A stretch of DNA of 25,361 bases from a virus. The notes under the pieces were generated by a model. The model worked only from the letters and a program-made list of their open reading frames with translations. It did no database searches and was not told where the DNA came from. The DNA lies in the IMG/VR virus record IMGVR_UViG_3300025770_000087, positions 1-25,361 of that record; one strand, given 5' to 3'. The position numbers were made by a program, and so were the translations under genes. Below, one piece after another: positions 1,792 through 25,205 of the stretch; the stretch's first letter is position 1; every line of letters begins with the position of its first letter.

Positions 1792-1994
1792 TTCCTATCC
1801 TTTTTTCTTTTTTTATATTTATGAAATGCTTTAATTATTTCTCTATATTTTCCTACCCCTTTTTGGTCGGGGTTTATTTTAATTTTACCTTGCTTTCTCT
1901 GTTTGGTAACATCTGCTGCCATTGTCAGGGGACTGTCGTGTTTGTCAAAGGTTTTTGACAGGGGACTTTCGGAAAATTGTTTAAAGGATTTCAT
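1788..1994 (-). CDS. Small basic protein with capsid-targeting-like N-terminus
   Basis: 68 residues starting MKSFKQFSESPLSKTF, one of the window's repeated MKSFKQ N-termini. The T4 internal protein signal MKTYQEFIAE has the same pattern: Met-Lys, aromatic, polar, aromatic, then a Glu where prohead protease cuts. The rest is Lys/Arg-rich (over 20 basic residues) and ends KKRKKDRK, suiting nucleic acid binding. Its ATG overlaps the stop of the 714-residue gene as TAATG, so translation is probably coupled. I recognise no domain. A packaged, DNA-binding internal head peptide is inferred. Confidence 0.7.
   Translation of the reverse strand: MKSFKQFSESPLSKTFDKHDSPLTMAADVTKQRKQGKIKINPDQKGVGKYREIIKAFHKYKKRKKDRK
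1816..1823 (-). promoter_or_regulatory. T4-like late promoter word CATAAATA
   Basis: On the minus strand this reads CATAAATA, one base from the T4 late -10 word TATAAATA. It lies 25 bases before the start of the secreted Arg-rich ORF and inside the end of the 68-residue gene. It could give the envelope pair its own late transcript. This rests on motif similarity only. Confidence 0.35.
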
Positions 1995-4138
1995 TACCTT
2001 GCGCGTCCGCGGGCACTTGGACCACTCAGAGGTCCTCTATTTAGTCTTCTTTGTGCTTTCCCAAAACCCTGTATTCTTTGTATTGTCTTGCCAGACTGTT
2101 GTTGTCCTCTGATGGACTGGTCATGGGCTTTCTTCATATAACTTTTCAAAGTTTTCTTGGTCAAACCTGTTTCATCGGATTCATTCAACCCAAGTGCTTT
2201 TGCCAGTGCTTTTGCCCAATGGTCAACACTTGCACTGATAATTTTATCGCTGATGTTACCGTAAGAGATGTTACTCTTATCTTTGATATTTGCTTTGGGG
2301 TACATGACATCAAGCATCATCTTACGAAGTTTGTTATCAATATTATCCGACATTACCATAATGAATCGAGTCTTACCACCCTTTGACTTAACAGTGAGTT
2401 TACCTTTTGTATATTTCTTTACTGCTTGTTTTAATTGCTTTGCAAATGCGGCGGTGTTGTCTTCATCCAGTTCAACGGATTCTTTGACAACTTTGATTTT
2501 ACCAAATCTTTTCATTTGATTGCTCACGATATCTGCACCAAGTGGAACTTCAATAACTCCAAGTTTTCCTCTTAGTTTCTTTTTCTGACTGTATGTATTT
2601 TTGATATATTGTCGTGCAATTTTTTCTGTGGGAAATGCTTTGATAAACATACCACTCCCAACGCCAGCAACAGCAAATTCGGTTTTACCTTCATCCAGTT
2701 CAACGGATTCTCTTAAAGTTTCCTTCTTCCAAGTATCAAGCAACTTCATAAACTTGTCGAATGGAAGTTCGCCACTCTTTGGTTTCCATGGCATATTCCT
2801 GTTGTTGTATCTCACCTTACCGTTTCCAATAAGGAAAGACCAATCACCTCTACCTCTACCTTGTTGATATTCAACACTGTTGGGGCTGGAAATCTTTAAT
2901 TCCTTGGATAGTTTTGCAGTAACATAATCACCAAATGAATCTGTCCATTTATCTTTGTGCTTTGCTACACTGTCGATGAATTTAATAATCTGCAATGCCT
3001 GTTTGTGCATTTTCGTATGCAGAGCGGTGTGTGCTTTAGTAAACCTCGCCATCTCTCTGTCACTTAGAACCTCATCCAGTTCAACGGATTCTTTTGCATA
3101 GAGAGGATTTCCCTTTGCATCTTTCCTTGCAACAAGTTTATGTTTCTTTGCAAAGTCCATTGCCTTTTGATGACTAACATGACTACCGTGGTATGCGAAC
3201 ATCTTGATGCGACCCTTCTTTGGGTCACTGATGGTTGCCATTAATACTTTGTCTTGGTTTGAACGCAATTCACCCCTATGTCCCAGAGGTCTTTGAATAA
3301 CAACAAACCTCGCAGTCTTATTGAGAGAGGATGGCACATTTATTAGAATCTTTGACTTAGGGTGTTGAATAATTTCTGTGGTTTTCTTATCCGCAGGGAT
3401 GTTCGTGTCCCCACCGAACCGTTCATTCAACTCTGATTCATCATATTCTGTTGATGCAGTTACTGGTATTCCTACCATCTTATTATATTTTTTAATTTTC
3501 TTCGTATTGTCTTTTTTGCGTTTTCTCTCACTTCTACTAAACTTATCCATCTTTAGTCTTCTAAGAATACTTGATTCATCAACTTCAACATGGTCTTGTA
3601 ACTTCTTCCACCTATCCGCAACATACGCATCCAAGTTGCCGTGGTCTTTGTAAGAACTCTTTTTCACAGGTTGTTTCACAGGTTGTTTCACAGGTTGTTT
3701 GACTTCAACGGATTCACTAACCTCTTGCTTTGGTGGAACAAAATATGACATCGTTCCATATCTGTCGTCTTTGACAATGATAGGTTGACCTGGATTTCGG
3801 TGTGCATATGAGCGAATCTCTTGATTGTCAATTTCTTCCATGTTTAATTTCTTGTTCCATCTTTCATATCGCATTCTTCCGTGCATACATTTTGCATAAT
3901 CATCACTGGATACAGTGAAAACTGGACAACCTGCAAAGGATTCATTCTTTTTCTTTCTTCTTGGTTTAATGGCAAGTCTATCTGCTTCCCTTCCAGCAAT
4001 TTGTGGTAAACCATCAAGGGGTTCAATAGATTGATGCAGTCCGGCAATACCAGTACCATTGCCACCACCTGTAGATGAATTCGCAGCCACTTCTTCTGTA
4101 AACTGTTTATATGTTTTTTTCATACTATTATGTATCAT
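1994..4138 (-). CDS. Modular protein with ESVELDE linkers, possible internal-head polyprotein
   Basis: 714 residues. After MIHNS comes MKKTYKQFTEE, resembling the T4 capsid-targeting sequence. The ATG at 4138 has GGGAAGGG upstream; the ATG at 4123 (Met6) has no visible ribosome binding site but matches the signal better. Domain-sized modules follow: about 25-138 (basic, ends in a SYFVPP motif), 160-245, 250-345, 357-470, 484-550, 560-650 and 655-714. ESVELDE recurs identically at 350-356, 477-483 and 553-559, with relatives ESVEVKQPV (142-150) and LNESDE (651-656). KQPV is repeated three times at 147-158. VELDE fits the (L/I)xE rule of T4 gp21-type protease. The last module (LTKKTLKSYMKKA) recurs in other marine phage proteins as I recall them. 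No enzyme motif is seen. Confidence 0.8.
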   Translation of the reverse strand: MIHNSMKKTYKQFTEEVAANSSTGGGNGTGIAGLHQSIEPLDGLPQIAGREADRLAIKPRRKKKNESFAGCPVFTVSSDDYAKCMHGRMRYERWNKKLNMEEIDNQEIRSYAHRNPGQPIIVKDDRYGTMSYFVPPKQEVSESVEVKQPVKQPVKQPVKKSSYKDHGNLDAYVADRWKKLQDHVEVDESSILRRLKMDKFSRSERKRKKDNTKKIKKYNKMVGIPVTASTEYDESELNERFGGDTNIPADKKTTEIIQHPKSKILINVPSSLNKTARFVVIQRPLGHRGELRSNQDKVLMATISDPKKGRIKMFAYHGSHVSHQKAMDFAKKHKLVARKDAKGNPLYAKESVELDEVLSDREMARFTKAHTALHTKMHKQALQIIKFIDSVAKHKDKWTDSFGDYVTAKLSKELKISSPNSVEYQQGRGRGDWSFLIGNGKVRYNNRNMPWKPKSGELPFDKFMKLLDTWKKETLRESVELDEGKTEFAVAGVGSGMFIKAFPTEKIARQYIKNTYSQKKKLRGKLGVIEVPLGADIVSNQMKRFGKIKVVKESVELDEDNTAAFAKQLKQAVKKYTKGKLTVKSKGGKTRFIMVMSDNIDNKLRKMMLDVMYPKANIKDKSNISYGNISDKIISASVDHWAKALAKALGLNESDETGLTKKTLKSYMKKAHDQSIRGQQQSGKTIQRIQGFGKAQRRLNRGPLSGPSARGRAR
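2463..2482 (-). repeat. ESVELDE linker repeat, copy 1
   Basis: The 20-base sequence TCATCCAGTTCAACGGATTC (plus strand) encodes ESVELDE in the 714-residue protein. It is identical at 2691-2710 and 3072-3091, although the flanking modules are unrelated. A fourth copy with two differences lies at 12833-12852 in the 1509-residue gene. Confidence 0.9.
2691..2710 (-). repeat. ESVELDE linker repeat, copy 2
   Basis: Identical over 20 bases to the copies at 2463 and 3072. It separates two modules of the 714-residue protein. Confidence 0.9.
3072..3091 (-). repeat. ESVELDE linker repeat, copy 3
   Basis: Identical over 20 bases to the copies at 2463 and 2691. It separates the third and fourth modules of the 714-residue protein. 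Confidence 0.9.
3663..3700 (-). repeat. 12-bp tandem repeat encoding KQPV
   Basis: Three units of TTCACAGGTTGT encode (KQPV)3 in the linker after the first module of the 714-residue protein. Such units expand by slippage; the encoded segment looks like a flexible spacer. Confidence 0.85.
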
Positions 4139-9063: not shown

Positions 9064-12000
9064 TTATAGTTCTTTTGAGAATTTATCATTTATGGTCATA
9101 TGTGGAGTATCTTTTAAATACTTTTTAAGTAATTCTTTTGTTCCCATATCACCTGCACCGTGTTCTTCGTTAGTCTTTTTTCTCCACTTATTGTTATCTC
9201 GTCCCCTGTTGAAACTTCTGTTCACCATTCTTAGATTTTTTGGTGAGTTGTTTAGTGGATTTCCGTCTTTATGGTCTAAATCCTTACCATCACCAACAGA
9301 TGCTCTACCAGAACGAATCAGTTTGTTTCGTGCATTTGTCCTTGCACTTCTTCGTTCTCGTTGTTCTGGTTTTGCACCATATTGCTTTAGATATGCGGTA
9401 CGATTTGCATCAGTAGCACTTGCAGATGCATCTCCCGCACCTGCACCTTCTTTAATTGGATGTGCATGAAGGTCTAACGGTTTTGGTGGGTCGCCCAATT
9501 CCCAACCTTTATCTCGTCCAAGAGTTTTATCAAACAAATCTTTAGTATGTTCTTTTCCTTGCTGTGGATATTTGGGAAGCATCATAATAACATCCTCATA
9601 AAATTGTGATTCGTGTATAAAGTTAGGACAATCTCCTTGTTCTATAAAGAAATTTAAAAGCATTGGCCAATCACTATTATCTTCTTCAATTTCTATATGT
9701 TCATATCCACTTGTCCACCTCATTACTTCATCAATCACCTGTCCACCGTTTCCAATTCTACTAAGAATTGTTTCTAGAACATAGAAATAATCAATGAATA
9801 ATTCTTCACCTTCTTTAATTTCTTTTAATGCATGTGCAGTAAAGTTTCCATTGTTTTCTATTAATGAAATATTTTCATTTATATGAGAATGATTTGTCCA
9901 TCTACAGAAATCTGTTCTTTGATATGAAGGAACATCTTCTAACAGATTGAGATAGTATAGTGAAATTTCTTCACCTGCTTTTATATCCTCTGTTGCAAAA
10001 GAACCTAAACCATGAACAGATGATTCTTTAAACTCATATGAATCGGTAACACTGTAAGTTTTACCACCTTGCTCTGCTGAAGTAATAGTGCCTGGTGCTA
10101 AACCTTGTAATTTTTCTGATGCTTTTGCTTGTTGTTGTAATTGTTTTTTCTTTGCTTTTTCGTCCCAACCTGATTGTTCAATAAATCCCTTCACAACCTT
10201 ATGACTTTTTTCTCTTTCAGACATCATTCGGAATTGCTCATTGAACAATGCATTTTCTTCTTCGGGACTGAGTGCAAGTCCTTCTTCTCTTTCTTCTTCT
10301 TCTCCTGTATTTTTCAACACTGAAACTTGGTGAGTTTTAAAACCCCTTTCACCATATACTTTAATTTGAGTGGTTTCTTCAGACTCTTGTTCTAGTCCAA
10401 TGTCAGACCAGTCTTCAATTTCAGAAGATTCCATATCTTCTATATCCCACCCCATATGGTCTATCAGTTTAAGTGGGTCACCCTTTACATTATTAAGTTC
10501 TTTAGAATTCCGTTCTGCAACTGCTTTACCTGCATCGACATCCTGTTTGAATAGTTGCATTGCTTCATTTTTGTCGATTTCTTCTAATATTAATCCTTGA
10601 TGGTGTGCAAAGGAATCTATAATAGAATCTGGTTCTTTAGTATGAACTTGTAAGGCAGCGTATCCTGCATAGTCGCCCAGTTTTAAATTAGAACCCATTT
10701 CCTTATCTGACCTTTTCATCAATTCCTCAACACTTATTCCTAAATCGTCTGCATATGCTTTTAATTTCTTTGATTTTTGTCCAGTTTTCCAAGAAAAAGC
10801 AGTATCAGATTTCTCCATAATTTTGTTTATTGTTGCCTTACCTTCGGCACTCCCTTTTCTAAGGTCGCTCATTGAAACATTAGTACCGTCTGCACTCATC
10901 GTCAACATATATTCTGCTACTTTAGATGTATTACAACCACAGTCACATCCTGTGTTACAACACCCACAGAATTTACAACATCCTGTGGCTGCTTCGGTAA
11001 ATAATATTTCTTTAAATTCTTTATTATTATTAAATACAGTATTGATTCTTTTTGCTAAATCTTTATGAAATTCATTACCTTCTTTTATTTTATTTACAAT
11101 ATCTGGATGGTATTTTGAAATGTCAGTACCTTCCCAATGCTCTGGTTGTGGTGGTTGTCCATAAACAGAAGACCACGAAACTCCATTCGCACCAGGTCCA
11201 GTAACATCCCACCACTTTGGTCCAGTATTTTCGTTACACCCTGCACAACGATATGTGCCACCTTCGGTAAACCATCCCAAAGGACCGACCCCGATTCCAG
11301 TGCTTAGATGTGTCCTCTCTCTATTCTTTAAGTCTTTAATTATTCCATCAACCAACTTATGTGTTTCTTTATCCATTCCCATTGTGCTTTCACAATTTAT
11401 TTTACCTCCACATTTTTCTTTTAACACCCCTCTTGCCATTTCAAACATTGCAACTGCTTCGCCTGGAGCAGAAGATATAAGTCTAGAAGGACCTGCTTTT
11501 ACAGACACACCATATCTTTTTTCTTTACCCTTACTGTCTGTACGAACTAGAATGATATCACTTTTGGAAGTTGGACCACTTCTACCCGCATGGCTTTTCC
11601 AGTACTTTGAAATTCCTTGTTTCTTTTCTCCAGGAATTTTCTTACCTGCATGGATGGCTTTCCATGTATATTCTTCGTTTTCATCACCCAGTTCACCTTT
11701 AGAATTTGCATCCATGAAGTCTTTTACTCCACCACGACCTTCAAAAACTCTTTTTGCCACAGAGCCTTCTTCAAGACCATACATCTCTGCTTTTGCTTGA
11801 CTCATTGTAATACTTGAATCTATTTTGCCTCTGTCTGTTGAAGATATGTCACCATCATATCCATTTCCAAAATGTAAATTGATGTGGTCTACAATTCCTG
11901 CTTCTACATCAACTGCATCAAAGTCTGTCGGATATGTTGCTTTTCCTTTTGGTTTTTTCTTCAACAACTTGTTGACTTGGTTTTGCATCTTTGCAGTGAG

Positions 12001-13593
12001 TTCTGCTTTGATTGCTTCTTTCGGTTCATTTTCAATTGCAGCGATTTCTCCATCTGTTTGCATTGTAGCAAGTTTGGTCTGTTTCTTTGCAAGTTTCTTT
12101 TCTTCTGGACTCAGTTCAGGTTCAGGTTTCCCTTCACCTTTTTTATGTTCACCACCCTGTACTGCTCTTGTGTCATCAACTGCTTTTTGTTCTTTTTGTT
12201 TCAAACCAATTGCAGTCGCACTATCTGTCCAATCAAAAGAATCAGGTTCATTTGCATATTTTTGTGCTACACCTTTGATTTGTTTTGCAGTACCTTCTTT
12301 TTCTACTGTGTGGTTCTTGGCAACTTTGTCTACCACTGCATGTTTTTTACCATTCTTTGTCTTTACAAGATAAAATACTGGCTCTTTCTTTCTTCTGTTT
12401 GCCTCGTCATTTGCTTTTACTCTTGCAACATTTTCTCTATCTTCTATCAAGACTTCGTTTTCAAAATTATAGTCAATACTTTCAACTGCTTTTGCTGGGT
12501 CATTTGTTGTCATTCTTGCTCTCACTTTTACTAGTCTTTCTTTTTCTGCTTTTTGCATTGCAGGCATCATTTTCCTGGCAATCGCGGCAATTCTTTTCTT
12601 CTTCTTCTTTATTTTTGCATCAATCTTTTCTCGTTGTAGGAATGGAACATCTTTCCACTTCATACCCTTGATTAACTTATCTCTCACTTTAGTAACAGCG
12701 GCTTTATTGGCTTTCTTTACTAAATCCTTTTTACCTTTTCTTCGTTTTTCTTTTAGTTTTCTTTTTCTTGCTCTTAACTTTGCAGTTCTTTTTGCAGACC
12801 TTGCCATCTTCCTTCTTGTTTGAACTGAAATCTCATCCAATTGAACGGATTCTTTCATATCTTTCATTAAGACCTTGACTGTCTTGAGGTCAATTCTCAT
12901 AATATTTGCAATCTGCTGGGCAGTTTTGCCTTCCTTAACAAGCATATGGAATTCGGACATCTTACTTTCAGCAAGATAGGATTCTGCAAACTCTACAAAC
13001 TCATCATAATCAAACCAAGTTTCTATAATTTTACCACGAACTCCCATACCCTTTCGTACTGCTTTGAATAGTTTTAATCTATCTGCTTCAGAAACATGAG
13101 AAGGTATACCCAATTTAAATGCATTGAAGTTTCCTTCAGCAGCCGCTGCCCTCATTTTAGATGCAGACATACCTTCAACACCTTCTGCATCTGGGTCCCT
13201 CTCTCCTGCGGATACAACATCGAAGTTTGCGATATTTTCATATCCTTTTTTTCCGATGTACTTCTTCATACCGTTTTTAAATTCTGAAACTCTATCTGCA
13301 CCCACCACCATAGTAATATCTGTGTATCCTTCTTTACTTAACTGTTGTAATACAGTAAAGGGGTTGCCAGATTTATTATTTACTATAACATTTGTATCTT
13401 TAAGCACTTTTTTCATAAATCTAGACTTATCTACCGAAGATAGTGGATTTCTTTTTGCATCTTGAGTATTACTTCCATATATTTTATAATCTGCACCCCT
13501 TCGTCTGGCTTCTTCTTTTACTTTGGTTGCAAGTAAAAGATGGCCGGTTGTGGGTGGATTAAATCTTCCGAAGGTAAAAACAATTTTTTTCAT
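9064..13593 (-). CDS. Giant multidomain protein: nucleotidyltransferase, nuclease-like, SET and HNH
   Basis: 1509 residues from the ATG at 13593, which has GGGAG six bases upstream. Residues 1-185 are a NadM/cytidylyltransferase-type domain with FGRFNPPTTGH (8-18) and GMSASKMR (141-148). ESVQLDE (248-254) then leads to a very basic helical region (255-360). A TKNGKKHAVVDK module lies at about 405-465. Residues 610-720 resemble a PD-(D/E)XK nuclease core (SKSD about 676-679, VSVK 696-699). CAGC and a nine-Cys cluster (872-887) are part of, or inserted after, it. A SET methyltransferase core spans about 1190-1272 (HGLGSF, RWTNHSHINEN, EGEELFIDYF). An HNH endonuclease spans about 1395-1473 (DLDHKDGNPLNNSPKNL). 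Whether it works whole or is cut at xLDE/LEE sites is open. Confidence 0.8.
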   Translation of the reverse strand: MKKIVFTFGRFNPPTTGHLLLATKVKEEARRRGADYKIYGSNTQDAKRNPLSSVDKSRFMKKVLKDTNVIVNNKSGNPFTVLQQLSKEGYTDITMVVGADRVSEFKNGMKKYIGKKGYENIANFDVVSAGERDPDAEGVEGMSASKMRAAAAEGNFNAFKLGIPSHVSEADRLKLFKAVRKGMGVRGKIIETWFDYDEFVEFAESYLAESKMSEFHMLVKEGKTAQQIANIMRIDLKTVKVLMKDMKESVQLDEISVQTRRKMARSAKRTAKLRARKRKLKEKRRKGKKDLVKKANKAAVTKVRDKLIKGMKWKDVPFLQREKIDAKIKKKKKRIAAIARKMMPAMQKAEKERLVKVRARMTTNDPAKAVESIDYNFENEVLIEDRENVARVKANDEANRRKKEPVFYLVKTKNGKKHAVVDKVAKNHTVEKEGTAKQIKGVAQKYANEPDSFDWTDSATAIGLKQKEQKAVDDTRAVQGGEHKKGEGKPEPELSPEEKKLAKKQTKLATMQTDGEIAAIENEPKEAIKAELTAKMQNQVNKLLKKKPKGKATYPTDFDAVDVEAGIVDHINLHFGNGYDGDISSTDRGKIDSSITMSQAKAEMYGLEEGSVAKRVFEGRGGVKDFMDANSKGELGDENEEYTWKAIHAGKKIPGEKKQGISKYWKSHAGRSGPTSKSDIILVRTDSKGKEKRYGVSVKAGPSRLISSAPGEAVAMFEMARGVLKEKCGGKINCESTMGMDKETHKLVDGIIKDLKNRERTHLSTGIGVGPLGWFTEGGTYRCAGCNENTGPKWWDVTGPGANGVSWSSVYGQPPQPEHWEGTDISKYHPDIVNKIKEGNEFHKDLAKRINTVFNNNKEFKEILFTEAATGCCKFCGCCNTGCDCGCNTSKVAEYMLTMSADGTNVSMSDLRKGSAEGKATINKIMEKSDTAFSWKTGQKSKKLKAYADDLGISVEELMKRSDKEMGSNLKLGDYAGYAALQVHTKEPDSIIDSFAHHQGLILEEIDKNEAMQLFKQDVDAGKAVAERNSKELNNVKGDPLKLIDHMGWDIEDMESSEIEDWSDIGLEQESEETTQIKVYGERGFKTHQVSVLKNTGEEEEREEGLALSPEEENALFNEQFRMMSEREKSHKVVKGFIEQSGWDEKAKKKQLQQQAKASEKLQGLAPGTITSAEQGGKTYSVTDSYEFKESSVHGLGSFATEDIKAGEEISLYYLNLLEDVPSYQRTDFCRWTNHSHINENISLIENNGNFTAHALKEIKEGEELFIDYFYVLETILSRIGNGGQVIDEVMRWTSGYEHIEIEEDNSDWPMLLNFFIEQGDCPNFIHESQFYEDVIMMLPKYPQQGKEHTKDLFDKTLGRDKGWELGDPPKPLDLHAHPIKEGAGAGDASASATDANRTAYLKQYGAKPEQRERRSARTNARNKLIRSGRASVGDGKDLDHKDGNPLNNSPKNLRMVNRSFNRGRDNNKWRKKTNEEHGAGDMGTKELLKKYLKDTPHMTINDKFSKEL
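12833..12852 (-). repeat. ESVQLDE linker repeat, diverged copy
   Basis: 18 of 20 bases match the repeat in the 714-residue gene. It encodes ESVQLDE between the nucleotidyltransferase part and the basic region of the 1509-residue protein. Confidence 0.8.
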
Positions 13594-13625
13594 ATTAGAC
13601 TCCCAATGCGTATTATATGTATAAA

Positions 13626-13664
13626 AAAACAAGAGAGCATATATAATGGATACTCTCTTGTTTT
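13626..13664 (-). terminator. Bidirectional intrinsic terminator
   Basis: A perfect 12-bp stem (AAAACAAGAGAG with CTCTCTTGTTTT) encloses a 15-base loop. On the minus strand a run of T follows the second arm, so it ends the leftward 16107-13757 operon just before the 1509-residue gene. Confidence 0.85.
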
Positions 13665-14227: not shown

Positions 14228-15430
14228 TTATCCTTTAATCCAATTTTTATCTGCTGTAAAATTGGCTTTACTGAATTCCAATCTATCCACGAACTTCACA
14301 GCATTACTGGTATATTTATCAATCGCCACATATCCTTCTGGTGCAGTTACCTTGAATCCAGTTGGAGTCTGGATAAATGTTCCTATGGATTTTACCGATT
14401 CTAATTTCCTCAAGAGTATAATCTTACCCTTTGCTATTACGGACCTTAAAGAGAAAAGAGAATCCAATTCTGTATTTTTTGAGTTAAGATATTTAACTAT
14501 ATCATTTCTTGCTGATTCTTTTTTCTTCTTGGCGCCCTCTGTTTTAAGACCATCAATCTGTCCTTGTATTTTGTCATTCACAAAACTTATGAACTCCTCT
14601 GTGGACAGACTGAGTGAACCCTCTCTAACTTTAGAATTTGCGTAAATATTTAAATTGTCTATCACCATTTTGTTATTTACAACATCATCCAAAAATGATT
14701 TAGATGATGACAATTTTACTTTTGCATCGGAGATTACACTTTCAATCGTGGTTGACTCTGAACTGGTAAGAGTTGCTGTGCCACTCACATCCTTGAAGTA
14801 TGCATCTTCCACCCACACCATTCTACTTTTCTTTAATGATTTTACATTAACACCAAACGATGCAGACATGCTTGATATATCTCTACCTGAGTATGAAGTA
14901 TGAAAAACTATACCCATCTTTGCACTTTTAATTCTTTTACCTTCATTTGAATCTACAGGAATTGCATATGTAATTGTATTGGGAGTGAAAACATAATGAC
15001 TTATACCATCTATAGATTTTGTTTTTACATCACTTGGACCAAACATCATATCTCCTTGAAGCACCCCTTTGATTGGCAGTTTCTTCAAATATTTTAATGC
15101 GGTTGTGAGTTTACCCACCACACCACCTTTATGATTTTTTCGTATATCTGATGGTGTGTAGTTTATCTTTGGCGTTTTATTGAACACACTTTTTGAACCA
15201 ACAAAGAATTTACCATTCTCTGGATTGATTCCACATATAATTGCAGGTGCGCCATCCCACTTCACTGTTGCATTTGTTTTTGACTTGGTGTTACCATTAA
15301 GCATTAATGCAATTTCTTCCAAGAATGAAATTGCTTCTGAGGCTCGTTCACTGCCCTCGAATACCAAATCCTCCACATGTATCATGTGGGTGTTCTTACC
15401 TTCTACCAGACAATCTGTGAATGTTTTCAT
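14228..15430 (-). CDS. Ligase-like nucleotidyltransferase (DUF6267-like) with cargo-type N-terminus
   Basis: 400 residues beginning MKTFTDCLVEGKNTH; LVE followed by Gly fits a prohead-protease site, and MKTF recalls the T4 capsid-targeting sequence. VKWDGAPAI (56-64) matches motif I (KxDG) of ATP-dependent ligases and capping enzymes, with Lys57 as the possible AMP-accepting residue. VLQGDMMF (123-130) could be motif III, PEGYVAI (364-370) motif IV, and KFVDRLEF (379-386) motif V. I recall this family from marine phages as DUF6267. Its ATG overlaps the exonuclease stop (ATGA). Polynucleotide joining or end activation is inferred from the motifs; the arrangement is unusual for a classical ligase. 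Confidence 0.65.
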   Translation of the reverse strand: MKTFTDCLVEGKNTHMIHVEDLVFEGSERASEAISFLEEIALMLNGNTKSKTNATVKWDGAPAIICGINPENGKFFVGSKSVFNKTPKINYTPSDIRKNHKGGVVGKLTTALKYLKKLPIKGVLQGDMMFGPSDVKTKSIDGISHYVFTPNTITYAIPVDSNEGKRIKSAKMGIVFHTSYSGRDISSMSASFGVNVKSLKKSRMVWVEDAYFKDVSGTATLTSSESTTIESVISDAKVKLSSSKSFLDDVVNNKMVIDNLNIYANSKVREGSLSLSTEEFISFVNDKIQGQIDGLKTEGAKKKKESARNDIVKYLNSKNTELDSLFSLRSVIAKGKIILLRKLESVKSIGTFIQTPTGFKVTAPEGYVAIDKYTSNAVKFVDRLEFSKANFTADKNWIKG

Positions 15431-16107
15431 ACCATATTTAGGGTTTTATTATGTTCATGATATTTTTGTATGGTATCATGTAAAGGTTTAACATAGTCTA
15501 TTGTGTTGCCAGTGAACACCTGACATGGCATTCCGTCTTCATTAGAAACAATTATATTAAATTTCTTAATTTCTGTTCCTGTTCTTTCTTGCCACATCAA
15601 TGCATATGCTGTTCCTTGAAGAAAATAGTTCTGAATGTCTGCTTCATACTTTTCTCTTGTGCTTCCCTTGAAATCTATAATTGACAATTCGCCATTATAT
15701 TCTGCAACACAATCTACTCTCCCTGCAAGTCCCAAAGTTTTACTCCATAGTGGCACTTCAAGTGCATGGATATTGCCTATTTCGTCCAATTTTGATTTCA
15801 TTTGCATAAACAAACTAGCAACCACTGGAGGTTTTGACATCAAGTTGATGCTCTTGTTGTTTAGATAATCTTCAATGGTTTCGTGAAGAATGTTGCCTCT
15901 GTTGAGAACCCTTCTTGATTCTTTTGGATTCTTTTTTCTCCACTCTTTGAAGAACTGGCTTTTTTCCCAACCCACCACAGTAGTAACACTAGGGTATGTA
16001 CCAGATGGCGTTTCATAGTGCCTAGTGCCATTTGCGTTGGTTGTTGCGGGGATATCTAGAAAATCAATTCCAGCCTCATTATGTTCAAACACTTTCTGCA
16101 TATTCAT
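15427..16107 (-). CDS. PD-(D/E)XK exonuclease, RecB/MGME1-like
   Basis: 226 residues with AAGGAG seven bases before the ATG. The signature is complete: RGNILHE (70-76, the His/Glu helix), Glu117 on a strand, GRVD (129-132), IIDFKGS (143-149, with Asp145 and Lys147), and QGTAY (164-168, the QxxxY motif). This set defines the RecB/Cas4/MGME1 class of single-strand-dependent exonucleases, which is common in cyanophages and marine myophages. It heads a leftward operon with the ligase-like protein, consistent with joint processing of DNA ends. A TATAAATA word 54 bases upstream may drive it late. Confidence 0.85.
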   Translation of the reverse strand: MNMQKVFEHNEAGIDFLDIPATTNANGTRHYETPSGTYPSVTTVVGWEKSQFFKEWRKKNPKESRRVLNRGNILHETIEDYLNNKSINLMSKPPVVASLFMQMKSKLDEIGNIHALEVPLWSKTLGLAGRVDCVAEYNGELSIIDFKGSTREKYEADIQNYFLQGTAYALMWQERTGTEIKKFNIIVSNEDGMPCQVFTGNTIDYVKPLHDTIQKYHEHNKTLNMV

Positions 16108-16169: not shown

Positions 16170-17180
16170 ATGGCACATCTAAACAGCAAAACTACCGATG
16201 GCACATTATCATTTGAGAAGTATGTTTCAAAGAATCCAAAGTGGCATTCTAGTATGGAATTTATAGTAGAGAATGGAGTGACCGAAGCACCAATAGTAGA
16301 AATAAAAGAAAACAGACCATTTGAAACAAAATTAACTGTGAAGCAGGGTGATAAATTATACATTCCAAGCAAATCATATAAGACAATAAACAACAACAAA
16401 AGGTTTACAAAGGTTAGGCTTATAAGTGGAGGCGTTGGATATTTAGAATTAAGGTTTATACGAAAACCCAGCAATGCAGATGTGATGAAAACAGAACTGA
16501 GAGCAATACGAGATTTAGATGATGCAATAAAAAGTGCAGATGCGCCAATAACAATAGTAGTAAATAAAACTGGCGCAAAACGAAAAAAATTTACAGTTAA
16601 AGATATTGTGGGAGCAAGAAAGATAGGAGGTACACCAAAAGCCGACCTTGCATTGTTTAACAGTAAGGGCAATCCTGTGTTTTGGATATCTCACAAAAAA
16701 GCAGGGGATGCATCTGCATTCCAACAATATTCTGGTATATCTGCACAGTCTGGTGCATCAATATATCAACACACAGAATGTCAAAACTTTATGAAAAGTG
16801 TTTCACAGTTTATTGAAGACGATAAATTATCCGTACCTCTGTGGAGCGAAATAAAAGACACCACATTGAGAAGGATGGCAATATATGGACCAGATGTGGT
16901 GTCTGGAATTAAGTTCGGACAAAACAATGTTCAATTGATTGGTCAGGGTGACCCAGTTCTTAAACCCATTAACGAGGATGTATTCACTCTGAGTTTTTCT
17001 TCTCATGTTGCAACAAATGAAGATATTTCTGGTTTAGGTGGGGACTATGAACCTGTGTTTGTTGCTACCTATCGTGCAGGCAGAGGATTCTCTGTCGGTG
17101 GTGAAACATATAAGGGAGCAAGGTTAGGTATTGCTCCCTATGCTATGGTTAAAAATAGAAAAGGTATACGAAAAGTATAG
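16170..17180 (+). CDS. Restriction-like (PD-(D/E)XK-type) nuclease family protein
   Basis: 336 residues with a strong TTAGGAGGT before the ATG. Residues about 105-200 hold a plausible restriction-endonuclease core: Glu109 on a helix, then TPKADLALFNSKGNPVFWIS (155-174) with Asp159, and WISHKKAGDASAFQQYSG, where Lys176 sits two residues after Ser174. The TPKAD...WISHK pattern is, as I recall, widespread in unannotated marine phage proteins. C-terminal residues 260-336 form a separate domain. It is the only rightward gene between two leftward groups and faces the exonuclease gene. DNA cleavage is inferred from the motif; the target is unknown. Confidence 0.6.
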   Translation: MAHLNSKTTDGTLSFEKYVSKNPKWHSSMEFIVENGVTEAPIVEIKENRPFETKLTVKQGDKLYIPSKSYKTINNNKRFTKVRLISGGVGYLELRFIRKPSNADVMKTELRAIRDLDDAIKSADAPITIVVNKTGAKRKKFTVKDIVGARKIGGTPKADLALFNSKGNPVFWISHKKAGDASAFQQYSGISAQSGASIYQHTECQNFMKSVSQFIEDDKLSVPLWSEIKDTTLRRMAIYGPDVVSGIKFGQNNVQLIGQGDPVLKPINEDVFTLSFSSHVATNEDISGLGGDYEPVFVATYRAGRGFSVGGETYKGARLGIAPYAMVKNRKGIRKV

Positions 17181-18935: not shown

Positions 18936-19126
18936 AAACCCTTCGCACCACTTACCCAATTAATATATTGTTCGGTTGCTTCTGGATTTGATTCAAAAGA
19001 ATCCCATCCAGAATTTTGTGATTCATTAAGTTTATTCCACCTTCGGGTGGACTTTGATTCTTCTGCCACAATATCTTCATATCGTTCTCGGTCTACTGAT
19101 TCTAAATATTGCTTAAATGATTTCAT
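18932..19126 (-). CDS. Small MKSFKQYLES protein
   Basis: 64 residues starting MKSFKQYLESVDRERYEDIV, a capsid-targeting-like N-terminus. The remainder is charged and Trp/Ser/Asn-rich (WNKLNESQNSGWDSF) with no recognised domain. The ATG overlaps the stop of the preceding small gene (ATGA). Removing the first 9-20 residues would leave a peptide of about 45-55 residues. An internal head peptide is inferred. Confidence 0.7.
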   Translation of the reverse strand: MKSFKQYLESVDRERYEDIVAEESKSTRRWNKLNESQNSGWDSFESNPEATEQYINWVSGAKGF

Positions 19127-19332
19127 TGTGCTTTAGCAAGGTGTTCTGGCTTTCTGCCGTCTTTACCCACTCTCCACTTTCTTTGTTGTGCATCATATTT
19201 TGCTTTCGGAAATGGTGGCCACTTCTCGTTATCTTTCATCGAGGCATTATAGGTTGCACTAAATGATTGGTCTTCAAAGTCTACAGCCGGTTCTACTGCT
19301 TCTATATTTAAATATTGCTTGAATGACTTCAT
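19123..19332 (-). CDS. Small MKSFKQYLNIE protein, possibly leaderless
   Basis: 69 residues from the ATG at 19332; an upstream GTG would lie inside a terminator stem. The protein starts MKSFKQYLNIEAVEPAVDFE, where NIE followed by Ala is a good prohead-protease site. The C-terminal half (WPPFPKAKYDAQQRKWRVGK) is basic and aromatic. There is no ribosome binding site; instead TATAAATA ends seven bases before the ATG. Confidence 0.7.
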   Translation of the reverse strand: MKSFKQYLNIEAVEPAVDFEDQSFSATYNASMKDNEKWPPFPKAKYDAQQRKWRVGKDGRKPEHLAKAQ

Positions 19333-20217: not shown

Positions 20218-21021
20218 ATGCAACCAAAACAATTTAGAAATCTTATAGAATCTGCCAGAAGTATTGTTAATCCTATGGTGGAGAACGGTGACCATGACTG
20301 TAAGGGTAAACATGACCATGAAAATGAAGACAGTGTACATCATGAGATTAAACACAAGGGAAAGACTTGTAAACAAGCACATCCCGGCATGGAACACGAA
20401 GAATGGGAAATGTCACAGAATGAAGGTCATGATGATGTTGAAGGCGTTGAACTAGATGAATATTCATCAACAAGTGATGCAGGACAGAAACAAGCGAAAT
20501 GGGCGATGCAGGTTAAACCAAGTACAATTAAAAAACATACTCCCAAGACAAATAAACAAGCGAAGTTACTTAGAAAGGTTTCTAGAAACCTGGAAAGACA
20601 AGATAAATTATATGCATCAACCGAATATGAACTACAAGACTCGACAAAGGAAAGTCTTGCTCGTTTTATAGGTGAAAAGATTGAAAGAGGCGAGGATGGA
20701 ATAAAGAGGCTTAAAGGAGCATTCCCATCACAAGGTTCGTTTCATGGTATGTCACAAAAAGGACAGGATGCCGTAAAGGCAAGACGAGAGAAAGAAGCCA
20801 AGAGCAAACCAAAGCAACAGAACAATTCAGTAGAATATGATGGTGATGGTATTCAAGAAGTATCGTCTTCCTCAAGACGGGATGTAGGTAAATTAGTGTC
20901 ACGGAGTATGCCTACCCTTCTCAAAGGCCTCGGAGGACCAAAAGTTAAACCCATTGCACCATCGATTGGTTCAAAACTCCGAAAAGCAAAGCCTATAAAC
21001 AAACCAATCCCTAAATTATGA
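20218..21021 (+). CDS. His/Asp-rich putative cargo protein with VELDE site
   Basis: 267 residues. The start MQPKQFRNLIESARSIV includes LIE followed by Ser, a possible processing site. Residues 24-62 are unusually rich in His, Asp, Glu and Cys (HDCKGKHDHENE, HHEIKHKGKTC), suggesting metal binding. GVELDEYSS (76-84) repeats the linker motif seen in the polyprotein. The remainder is basic, ending in a Lys/Pro-rich tail (KAKPINKPIPKL) and probably binds nucleic acid or is unfolded. It heads the rightward operon and overlaps the ParB-like gene (ATGA). No known family is recognised. Confidence 0.7.
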   Translation: MQPKQFRNLIESARSIVNPMVENGDHDCKGKHDHENEDSVHHEIKHKGKTCKQAHPGMEHEEWEMSQNEGHDDVEGVELDEYSSTSDAGQKQAKWAMQVKPSTIKKHTPKTNKQAKLLRKVSRNLERQDKLYASTEYELQDSTKESLARFIGEKIERGEDGIKRLKGAFPSQGSFHGMSQKGQDAVKARREKEAKSKPKQQNNSVEYDGDGIQEVSSSSRRDVGKLVSRSMPTLLKGLGGPKVKPIAPSIGSKLRKAKPINKPIPKL

Positions 21022-21824
21022 AATCCTTCAAGCAATATATTATTCCAGAAGCAATGAATCCTGTGGAAACTAAACCATCAGAATTCCCAAACCCATTACA
21101 AGGTACACTTAAAAAAGTGTTTCAGTATAAGGGTAAGCATGATGGTGATACCACAGATGATATAGTTAAAGTTAAAGCAAAACAATTTGATGCAAACAAA
21201 TTAAAACCAACACAACAAGATGTATACTTAGGTAAATCATTAGGAATGGCAATCAACGGTGTAAAGGGTGGTGACTTGGGTGCTGTAGTATCTAAAGACG
21301 GTCATGTTCTTGACGGTCATCATAGATGGGCAGCGACCAACCTTAATGTAGACCCTACAAAAAAACCAATGAACAAACCACCACCAAGAATTTCTACAGA
21401 GTCAGTAAAGGTTGGAGGTGTGCAAGCAGATTTGAATATTGGTGACCTTGTTCCTGTGATGAGAGGTATTGGTGATTCAATGAATAACAAAAGACGAGGC
21501 GCACCAGAGGGTAACGATAAGAACATATTCCAATCAGATACTAGTGATGCAATGGATGCAATCAATCATGGCAAACATATGAACCCTAAGTTTTATAATA
21601 AAGACAAAGCACAACAGTGGTTAAAAGGTATTGGTGGAAAGAAGGAACTTAACAAGAGATTGGATTGGATGAGGCAAAAACATCCACCGGCCGGTTCACC
21701 ATCAAGGAAAAATATGCCAGTCATAGACAACGACAAAGGTCAAGTCGGACAAGCATCAGGATTGTTGAATCGTGGTAACATAGATGTTCGTAAACCATAC
21801 GCAAAAGTACAACAACAGAAATGA
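21018..21824 (+). CDS. ParB-like nuclease-fold protein with MKSFKQY N-terminus
   Basis: 268 residues starting MKSFKQYIIPEAMNP; IPE followed by Ala is a fair prohead-protease site. Residues about 50-115 carry the ParB/Srx fold core: Gln/Val/Tyr strand, GMAINGVKGGDLGAVVSKDG, then VLDGHHRWAA (97-106) with the conserved DGHHR. ParB-family proteins bind DNA and, in several phage and plasmid members, act as NTP-dependent clamps or nucleases. The C-terminal half is Lys/Asn/Pro-rich. The gene overlaps both neighbours by four bases. A DNA-acting protein delivered with the genome is inferred from the N-terminus. Confidence 0.75.
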   Translation: MKSFKQYIIPEAMNPVETKPSEFPNPLQGTLKKVFQYKGKHDGDTTDDIVKVKAKQFDANKLKPTQQDVYLGKSLGMAINGVKGGDLGAVVSKDGHVLDGHHRWAATNLNVDPTKKPMNKPPPRISTESVKVGGVQADLNIGDLVPVMRGIGDSMNNKRRGAPEGNDKNIFQSDTSDAMDAINHGKHMNPKFYNKDKAQQWLKGIGGKKELNKRLDWMRQKHPPAGSPSRKNMPVIDNDKGQVGQASGLLNRGNIDVRKPYAKVQQQK

Positions 21825-24155: not shown

Positions 24156-24215
24156 CATGACGCCATTCATTGTTAAATTATTAAACTACTATTGTCACTG
24201 GAACTTAAAACCCTA

Positions 24216-25205
24216 ATGAAATCATTCAAACAATACATCGAAGAAAAGAAACAAACTTATGTCAAGGGGTGGACATTAAAGAATAAGATACACACATCTA
24301 CGACCAACTTTCAAAACTGGCACATCAAACAAGTTGCAAACAATCTGAGCAAATTCGGTCTGAACAAAAGAAGTCTACTTAAAATAATAAATGATGCATG
24401 GCCAGATGCACCAGAAACTTTCCCAAACGAACATATAGAAGAATTAGAAAATGGTCTTGCAGACAACAATGTATACATTGAAGAAGTCTTGCAGAAGAAA
24501 GGGTATTGTATGTTTGTACTAGACCCTACACATGGTAGTATATCAGGATGGGATGAGAAATCTGCTAAACTAGGTGCAAAGGTATTAGACGACAAATATC
24601 TGCCATTTGAAAAAGATGGATTCAAGTTGTTTGAAATTAAAACTATAAAGGGTAAATCTAAGTACATCAAATCAAAATATGATTGGTACACTTGGTTAGA
24701 TGGTAAACAGGCTGCCGGTAAACGAACAGAGATTGGTAGCACAATGGCACAGTTTAGAGAAGAATACATCACAGAGATATTAGATAGACCGCTCAAGTGG
24801 AAAGAGTTTATCAACACAGACAAAGAGAGAAAAGCAGAGTTTGATGTTGGTGACTACAGTTATACTATATGGATTCGACTTGGTAACAAAAGACAAGCAA
24901 AAATACTTGGTGAACCACGAAAGATGCATTTAGAATTTATGCTTTCTTCGGAAGGTGGTGTTTCAAAAGGTAATGACGATAAACACTTAATCCTAAAGAC
25001 AGGAAATGCGGGTGCAGTATTCGCAACAGTCATTGATTATGCAAAGCATGTGGTCAAGCAAGAAAAAGTAAAAGAAATCCTATTCAGTGGTAAAGAAAAG
25101 TCACGGAAATCTTTATACAACGCAATGTTAAAGAGAATGAAGAGGATGGGTATAGTTAAAAGTTTTGAGCAAGAACACGGCGGATTCGTAGCACAAGTAG
25201 ACTAA
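24216..25205 (+). CDS. MKSFKQYIEE protein, conserved C-terminal phage domain
   Basis: 329 residues from the ATG at 24216; an upstream TTG at 24192 is rejected. The protein starts MKSFKQYIEEKKQTYVKGW, a capsid-targeting-like N-terminus with IEE as possible cut site. Residues about 70-200 form a mixed alpha/beta domain that I cannot name (CMFVLDPTHGSISGW, KSKYDWYTWLDGK). Residues 240-329 (HLEFML, GNAGAVFATVIDYAKHVVKQ, EILFSGKEKSRKSLYNAMLK) match, from memory, a C-terminal module of several marine phage proteins, with an acetyltransferase-like look but no clear acetyl-CoA loop. No ribosome binding site is obvious. The function is unknown; packaging in the head is inferred. Confidence 0.7.
   Translation: MKSFKQYIEEKKQTYVKGWTLKNKIHTSTTNFQNWHIKQVANNLSKFGLNKRSLLKIINDAWPDAPETFPNEHIEELENGLADNNVYIEEVLQKKGYCMFVLDPTHGSISGWDEKSAKLGAKVLDDKYLPFEKDGFKLFEIKTIKGKSKYIKSKYDWYTWLDGKQAAGKRTEIGSTMAQFREEYITEILDRPLKWKEFINTDKERKAEFDVGDYSYTIWIRLGNKRQAKILGEPRKMHLEFMLSSEGGVSKGNDDKHLILKTGNAGAVFATVIDYAKHVVKQEKVKEILFSGKEKSRKSLYNAMLKRMKRMGIVKSFEQEHGGFVAQVD

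Follow-up and report, generated by a model that had tools for sequence, protein, structure and literature searches.

What would a phage gain from joining a nucleotidyltransferase (NT), a nuclease-like domain, a SET lysine methyltransferase and an HNH nuclease in one reading frame, and in what form might such a chain reach the host? The question is raised by P0001, a 1509-residue protein encoded in a virus record of 25,361 bases, analysed over its whole length and referred to here as the window. The frame is real and lies where the first-pass annotation had placed it, on the minus strand, with an ATG at 13593 and its stop codon at 9064-9066. P0001 is probably a modular multi-enzyme phage protein packaged in the virion, and is composed as follows.

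9064-13593, minus strand: gene of P0001, a 1509-aa fusion; same fusion in L002, L150-L155 and L157-L159
13036-13593, minus strand: NT domain, residues 1-186, with GRFNPPTTGH and MSASKMR (PF01467, phrog_3041/395, alignment A2)
12853-12975, minus strand: HTH-like module, residues 207-247; not in L002, present in other, different proteins
12832-12852, minus strand: ESVQLDE joint, residues 248-254, with a predicted cut after E254
12499-12831, minus strand: highly basic coil segment, residues 255-365; encoded separately in Melnitz and C48C1, where it has a targeting-like N-terminus of its own
10759-11796, minus strand: nuclease-like domain, residues 600-945, with K677-x-D679, S697-x-K699, S708 and E867-AxTG; a separate gene in HTVC008M and Melnitz
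10933-10980, minus strand: Cys cluster CCKFCGCCNTGCDCGC, residues 872-887, a possible metal site, partly conserved in alignment A5
10048-10233, minus strand: variable slot before SET, residues 1121-1182, with segments differing between members (omega 0.86)
9769-10041, minus strand: SET domain, residues 1185-1275, with HGLGSF, RWTNHSHIN and EELFIDY (PF00856, PDB profile matches, Foldseek)
9178-9402, minus strand: HNH_3 nuclease domain, residues 1398-1472 (PF13392); a separate gene in L029
9091-9168, minus strand: conserved C-terminal tail EEHGAGxxGTxxLLKKYLKDTPxMTI; at a guess, a second targeting signal

The earlier proposal of four enzyme motifs in one frame stands for the NT, SET and HNH parts, all above Pfam gathering cut-offs, and not for the nuclease fold. 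CTP_transf_like (PF01467) matches residues 7-116 (28.2 bits, cut-off 21), SET (PF00856) residues 1223-1269 (31 bits, cut-off 22.4) and HNH_3 (PF13392) residues 1435-1462 (27.2 bits, cut-off 24.8). In PHROGs, the cytidyltransferase families phrog_3041/395 cover residues 1-274, phrog_28741 lies over the SET part, and phrog_4590 together with HNH families over the C-terminus. The HIGH-type nucleotidyltransferase (NMNAT/CTP) motifs are present as TTGH and MSASKMR, and their G, H, S and R residues are conserved in the 36 homologues of alignment A2. The SET lysine methyltransferase motifs GxG, N-H-S and E-E-L-x-x-D-Y occur as HGLGSF, TNHSH and EGEELFIDY, conserved in alignment A4. The SET part has PDB profile matches to MLL1/EZH2, and its low-confidence AlphaFold model (pLDDT 43, from a three-sequence alignment) has SET domains as best Foldseek matches, with vSET (3kma) among the matches; the nuclease-like part found no match by either route. 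The ESVQLDE linker (residues 248-254) and the basic spacer (residues 255-365), both previously noted, were recovered. Matches to BNR_assoc_N, T4_MRH, HTH_40 and GerE, all below cut-off, were disregarded, and a CAP-repeat match at residues 211-243, resting on weak repeated matches, was not used.

P0001 belongs to a group, and there is no doubt about either the fusion or the group. Besides the window, ten IMG/VR contigs have the fusion as a single frame (L002, L150-L155, L157-L159), nine of them with all four parts and L158 without the HNH part; a scan for the SET part recovered 11 loci, that on L002's contig and ten more. In L150-L155 and L157-L159, the NT, basic coil, nuclease-like and SET parts share a single frame of 1265-1878 aa, and in L156 the parts are split over ORFs of 370, 795 and 214 aa. 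L002 encodes the whole P0001-type protein at 77% identity and is collinear with the window at 82-88% DNA identity across both flanks and most of the gene. The fusions end in the tail EEHGAGxxGT...DTPxMTI, which differs slightly from this form in L152 and L154. The NT, coil, nuclease-like and SET parts are under purifying selection (omega 0.09, 0.14, 0.21 and 0.17, respectively, for the window against L002); two variable linkers reach 0.60 and 0.86, and dS is saturated in the HNH part. The annotation's statement that no described phage protein combines the whole set agrees with 50,697 deposited phage records, 545 of which match P0001, none over 80%; among the matches listed, only the NT domain was matched.

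The nuclease-like part is the least settled of the four. In its 12 members, the columns G, K, D, S, K, S, E, G and A are invariant, and all 12 keep the signature in the order K-[TS]-D, S-x-K, S, E-x-x-[TS]-G. The layout is similar to that of PD-(D/E)xK enzymes, with D679 and K699 invariant and S697 replacing the usual D or E. With the K[TS]D…SxK…S signature as its sole basis, the region can be called a probable nuclease. A structural or DNA-binding head domain at residues 600-945, a reading that concerns this part only, is a real possibility if a somewhat less than probable one: besides the serine at the usual E/D position and the Cys cluster, it is favoured by a segment with no Pfam or PDB profile match, whose low-confidence AlphaFold model (pLDDT 41, again from three sequences) gave no Foldseek match, including none to an alpha-beta-beta-beta-alpha core of PD-(D/E)xK type. 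In PHROGs, the segment matches phrog_22045 only (function unknown, five of 12 members). Against it, K, D, S, K and S are invariant in 12 copies, most of them 16-36% identical to P0001, and the same low-confidence model suggests a hairpin-then-helix setting such as a catalytic core would have.

Several parts of P0001 have counterparts encoded by separate genes, and these may point to the phage head. The separate NT, nuclease-like and coil genes begin with targeting-like stretches that resemble T4 capsid-targeting propeptides. In Melnitz, the nuclease-like gene (gene 15) starts with MQGFKTFLSEA, the coil gene with MKKFSELTSELIE and the NT gene with MKKFSEIIEA, and its DUF6267 gene has INFSKYITE right after the start codon. 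The coil gene of C48C1 runs from a MLSFKQFVSE start straight into VLDATQRRKLAMKMKK (MLSFKQFVSE-VLDATQRRK), and at the matching place P0001 reads ESVQLDE-ISVQTRRKMARSAKR. NT homologues with SFKQYLVEE-type targeting-like starts were found, as judged by eye, in at least 18 loci. The partner gene upstream of P0001 is similar in this respect:

14228-15430, minus strand: phrog_455/DUF6267-type protein (Pfam family taken from the Melnitz homologue), with a KWDG motif and a targeting-like MKTFTDCLVEG start

An N-terminal propeptide of the capsid-targeting type (10-19 aa) is absent from P0001 and the other SET-type fusions, which begin at or just ahead of MKKIVFTFGRF; four other long forms also start at the NT domain. 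That the conserved tail does the targeting is a guess; the C48C1 NT protein also has a tail-like stretch. In work by others on cyanophage virions, NMNAT-like/cytidylyltransferase proteins were detected for S-SCSM1 and S-CREM2, with reports for S-CBWM1 and S-SZBM1 as well; the authors of both virion proteomes warn that the NT could be carried over in the preparation (PMC9602691, PMC10665884).

The same head context is suggested by the joint. The prohead protease gp21 cleaves after L/I-X-E, and T4 internal proteins bear targeting propeptides of 10-19 residues (PMC9026906). P0001 contains a predicted site of this kind, and [LI]xE stands at the NT/coil junction, directly before the coil, in 12 of 12 fusion-type homologues (QLDE, residues 251-254, in P0001); divergent members keep it without the ESV part, as ELNE, ELSE, ELQE or INE. 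More generally, ESV[EQ]LDE appears to be a recurrent and widespread joint in proteins of marine T4-like phages, with 143 occurrences in non-redundant loci, or 200 when redundancy and a slightly wider motif are included. These loci were collected by a DNA pattern for the motif, which is thus present by selection; the next residue is not, and it is A, G, S or V in 66% of cases, against 27% expected from the same ORFs, and A in 34% against 8%. Eleven of 23 joint-bearing contigs encode the gp21-type protease Peptidase_S77 together with the major capsid protein Gp23, including all seven longer than 100 kb (G002-G008), and the propeptide region of all 11 Gp23 N-termini has a motif match to [LI]xE with a small residue after it (e.g., QLNE-V, LLQE-A, FLAE-S). 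Besides the carry-over warning, the fusions' lack of an N-terminal propeptide and the nuclease-like part with no fold match, some results weigh against a packaged and cut polyprotein: the window, a partial genome, holds neither a gp21 nor a gp23 gene, and HTVC008M is devoid of ESVELDE, as are Melnitz and S-MS29 in the stretches read, the LxE core alone being kept in these phages. A literature search for ESVELDE gave a sole, unrelated match, and a tblastn search of deposited phages with ESVELDE and one cassette gave none.

As regards expression, two elements were located upstream of the gene:

13616-13623, minus strand: predicted late-promoter-like element TATACATA, 30 nt before the ATG
13622-13662, minus strand: terminator-like hairpin AACAAGAGAG / CTCTCTTGTT with a T run, as read from the sequence

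The T4 late promoter is TATAAATA, and most relatives have TATACATA or TATAAATA at the matching place. In the window, most TATANATA sites are followed by a gene start at a distance of 30-42 nt; the TATACATA/TATANATA elements resemble T4 late promoters.

We consider it moderately probable that P0001 is a late-made polyprotein that is packaged into the head, cleaved at LxE sites and then delivered by injection, as a kit for host takeover. The gene belongs to a marine T4-like phage, and its product would be built into the prohead core, where a gp21-type prohead protease would cut it behind [L/I]-x-E; the clearest such site is ESVQLDE, between the NT and the basic coil. The predicted products (the NT, the basic coil with the nuclease-like domain, the SET methyltransferase and the HNH nuclease) would remain in the head and pass into the host together with the DNA. 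Once inside, the SET part may methylate host proteins, the nuclease parts may attack host DNA, and the NT part may act on a nucleotide cofactor of NAD type. The joints also act as recombination sites at which segments, the presumed cargo, are exchanged between such genes. An unpackaged multifunctional enzyme is an unlikely alternative: made during infection and kept whole in the cell, it would supply cofactor through its NT part, methylate proteins through SET and break down host DNA through its nucleases, the LxE motifs being ordinary linkers. The long forms without an N-terminal propeptide would suit it, co-regulation can explain the fusion, and a chain of about 170 kDa is large in comparison with the T4 internal proteins; against it stand the targeting-like starts on separate counterparts of three parts, the LxE kept 12 times out of 12 at the coil junction while the preceding linker varies freely, and the NT homologues in virions, the observations from which packaging gains indirect support.

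The exchange of segments at the joints can be followed in the DNA itself. A block of 309 nt is fully identical (100%) between the L072 locus (same contig as L150) and L002, whose contigs come from two data sets (L072:927-1235, L002:19277-19585), and the ends of this block are the outer ends of two ESVELDE copies; it lies just before SET in L072 and in a different gene in L002, and elsewhere the genes of these contigs share 67-71% identity. Among 35 non-redundant internal shared blocks (identity 88% or higher), 23 end on at least one side no more than 12 nt from a joint copy and eight do so on both sides, against means of 4.0 and 0.38 (maximum 3 with both) in matched random shifts, figures de-duplicated in view of the contig redundancy that otherwise inflates the count, and to be read with the contigs' shared descent, the approximate BLAST ends and the many blocks with the motif at an end in one copy only in mind. 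L002 is devoid of P0001 residues 207-250, the HTH-like module, which recurs beside ESVxLDE in other proteins. A further ORF of the window carries the joint three times:

1994-4138, minus strand: neighbouring ORF with ESVELDE at 3071-3091, 2690-2710 and 2462-2482 and a targeting-like MKKTYKQFTEE start

Its segment 2700-3094 is common to L105, joint to joint. ESV[EQ]LDE is also a recombination joint where segments are swapped. That it is nothing but a scar of recombination or fusion, which gene conversion has spread and which has no protease role, seems improbable to us: the exact ends of the 309-nt block, the excess of blocks ending at copies (23 of 35, 4.0 expected) and the unusual codons of the motif relative to the same ORFs (Leu CTG 41% vs. 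9%, Leu TTA 1% vs. 21%, Val GTT 78% vs. 43%) would all be explained, but the small residue that follows the motif and the [LI]xE kept without ESV argue for constraint on the protein. The scar and cut-site roles are compatible, and we tentatively propose that in marine T4-like phages a single conserved 21-nt ESV[EQ]LDE sequence serves as both head-protease cut site and recombination joint, by which cassettes would be swapped between packaged polyproteins, the NT/nuclease/SET/HNH fusion being one, and freed within the head as individual enzymes. An assembly join of unrelated genes, for which the only points are the metagenomic origin of the record and the short repeats at the joints, is so improbable as to be negligible, given ten other contigs with sequence-divergent fusions from several data sets, a conserved frame with omega of 0.09-0.21, the collinear flanks of L002 and parts that are separate genes in other phages.

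Among known systems close to P0001 is the cytidylyltransferase/NMNAT-like virion protein of cyanophages and pelagiphages (phrog_3041, phrog_395, phrog_455), which shares the NT domain of P0001 at about 45-53% identity, likewise has a DUF6267-type gene nearby and has homologues detected in virions. Unlike P0001, the isolate NT proteins read are of 388-650 aa and several have a targeting-like N-terminus; none in the 50,697 records adds the nuclease-like, SET and HNH parts. T4 injects Alt and the internal proteins (IPs) into the host, on which Alt and IPI act. Alt, IPI-IPIII and the gp21-cut core proteins are similar to P0001 in the L/I-X-E rule, the small residue that follows and their basic parts; P0001 differs from Alt and the IPs in starting without a capsid-targeting sequence and in holding several enzymes per chain with internal sites, and homology to Alt or the IPs was not detected. 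Homologues of the nuclease-like part are AGE60460.1 of HTVC008M and the product of Melnitz gene 15; both are encoded in the vicinity of DUF6267-type and NT genes, as stand-alone proteins with their own targeting-like N-terminus rather than fused. A kit of the proposed kind exists in another virus, Chlorella virus PBCV-1, which packages vSET and restriction endonucleases (PMC7019647); a SET methyltransferase and nucleases enter the cell together, a parallel to P0001 as proposed here from sequence, although in PBCV-1 they are separate proteins of an algal virus acting on histone H3, and P0001 is a fusion in a tailed phage. The shuffling of fragments between phage proteins is a general phenomenon (PMC10684548); here, the exchange breakpoints coincide with one short motif that also fits a head-protease site.

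If the proposed reading is true, a single packaged chain would bring nucleases and a histone-type lysine methyltransferase into a bacterium, as a phage counterpart of PBCV-1 in algae; "cut after ESV[EQ]LDE" would become a simple rule by which cargo could be predicted for many uncultured marine phages, and the evolution of such cargo by segment exchange would come to light.

Some further observations concern the neighbourhood and relatives of the gene. The KWDG of 14228-15430 (minus strand) is reminiscent of ligase motif I. The cluster is adjoined at 15427-16107 (minus strand) by a Cas4-like exonuclease (phrog_298; TIGR00372 below cut-off), and C48C1 has an exonuclease gene at the matching place. 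Between the exonuclease and DUF6267-type genes of C48C1, CDS0086 (OQ984149.1, 60526-61827) has a D...SVKSGGGG motif of its own, and similarity between it and the nuclease-like part is not detectable. A phrog_13937 protein at 16170-17180 (plus strand), with PKADLAL...WISHKKAG, is possibly a further nuclease of D...SxK type. Two of the 36 NT homologues in alignment A2 match RimK ATP-grasp and Zn_protease, at a guess the loci L094:767-3058 and L097:4142-6589. A small ORF at L102:1296-1532 (minus strand) passes from a propeptide-like start directly to SGAGDWGTDELTKTLKGDTPGQ, the tail motif of the fusion. MKSFKQY starts, similar to capsid-targeting propeptides, are found in the window's ORFs at 19126-19332 (minus strand), 21018-21824 (plus strand) and 24192-25205 (plus strand).
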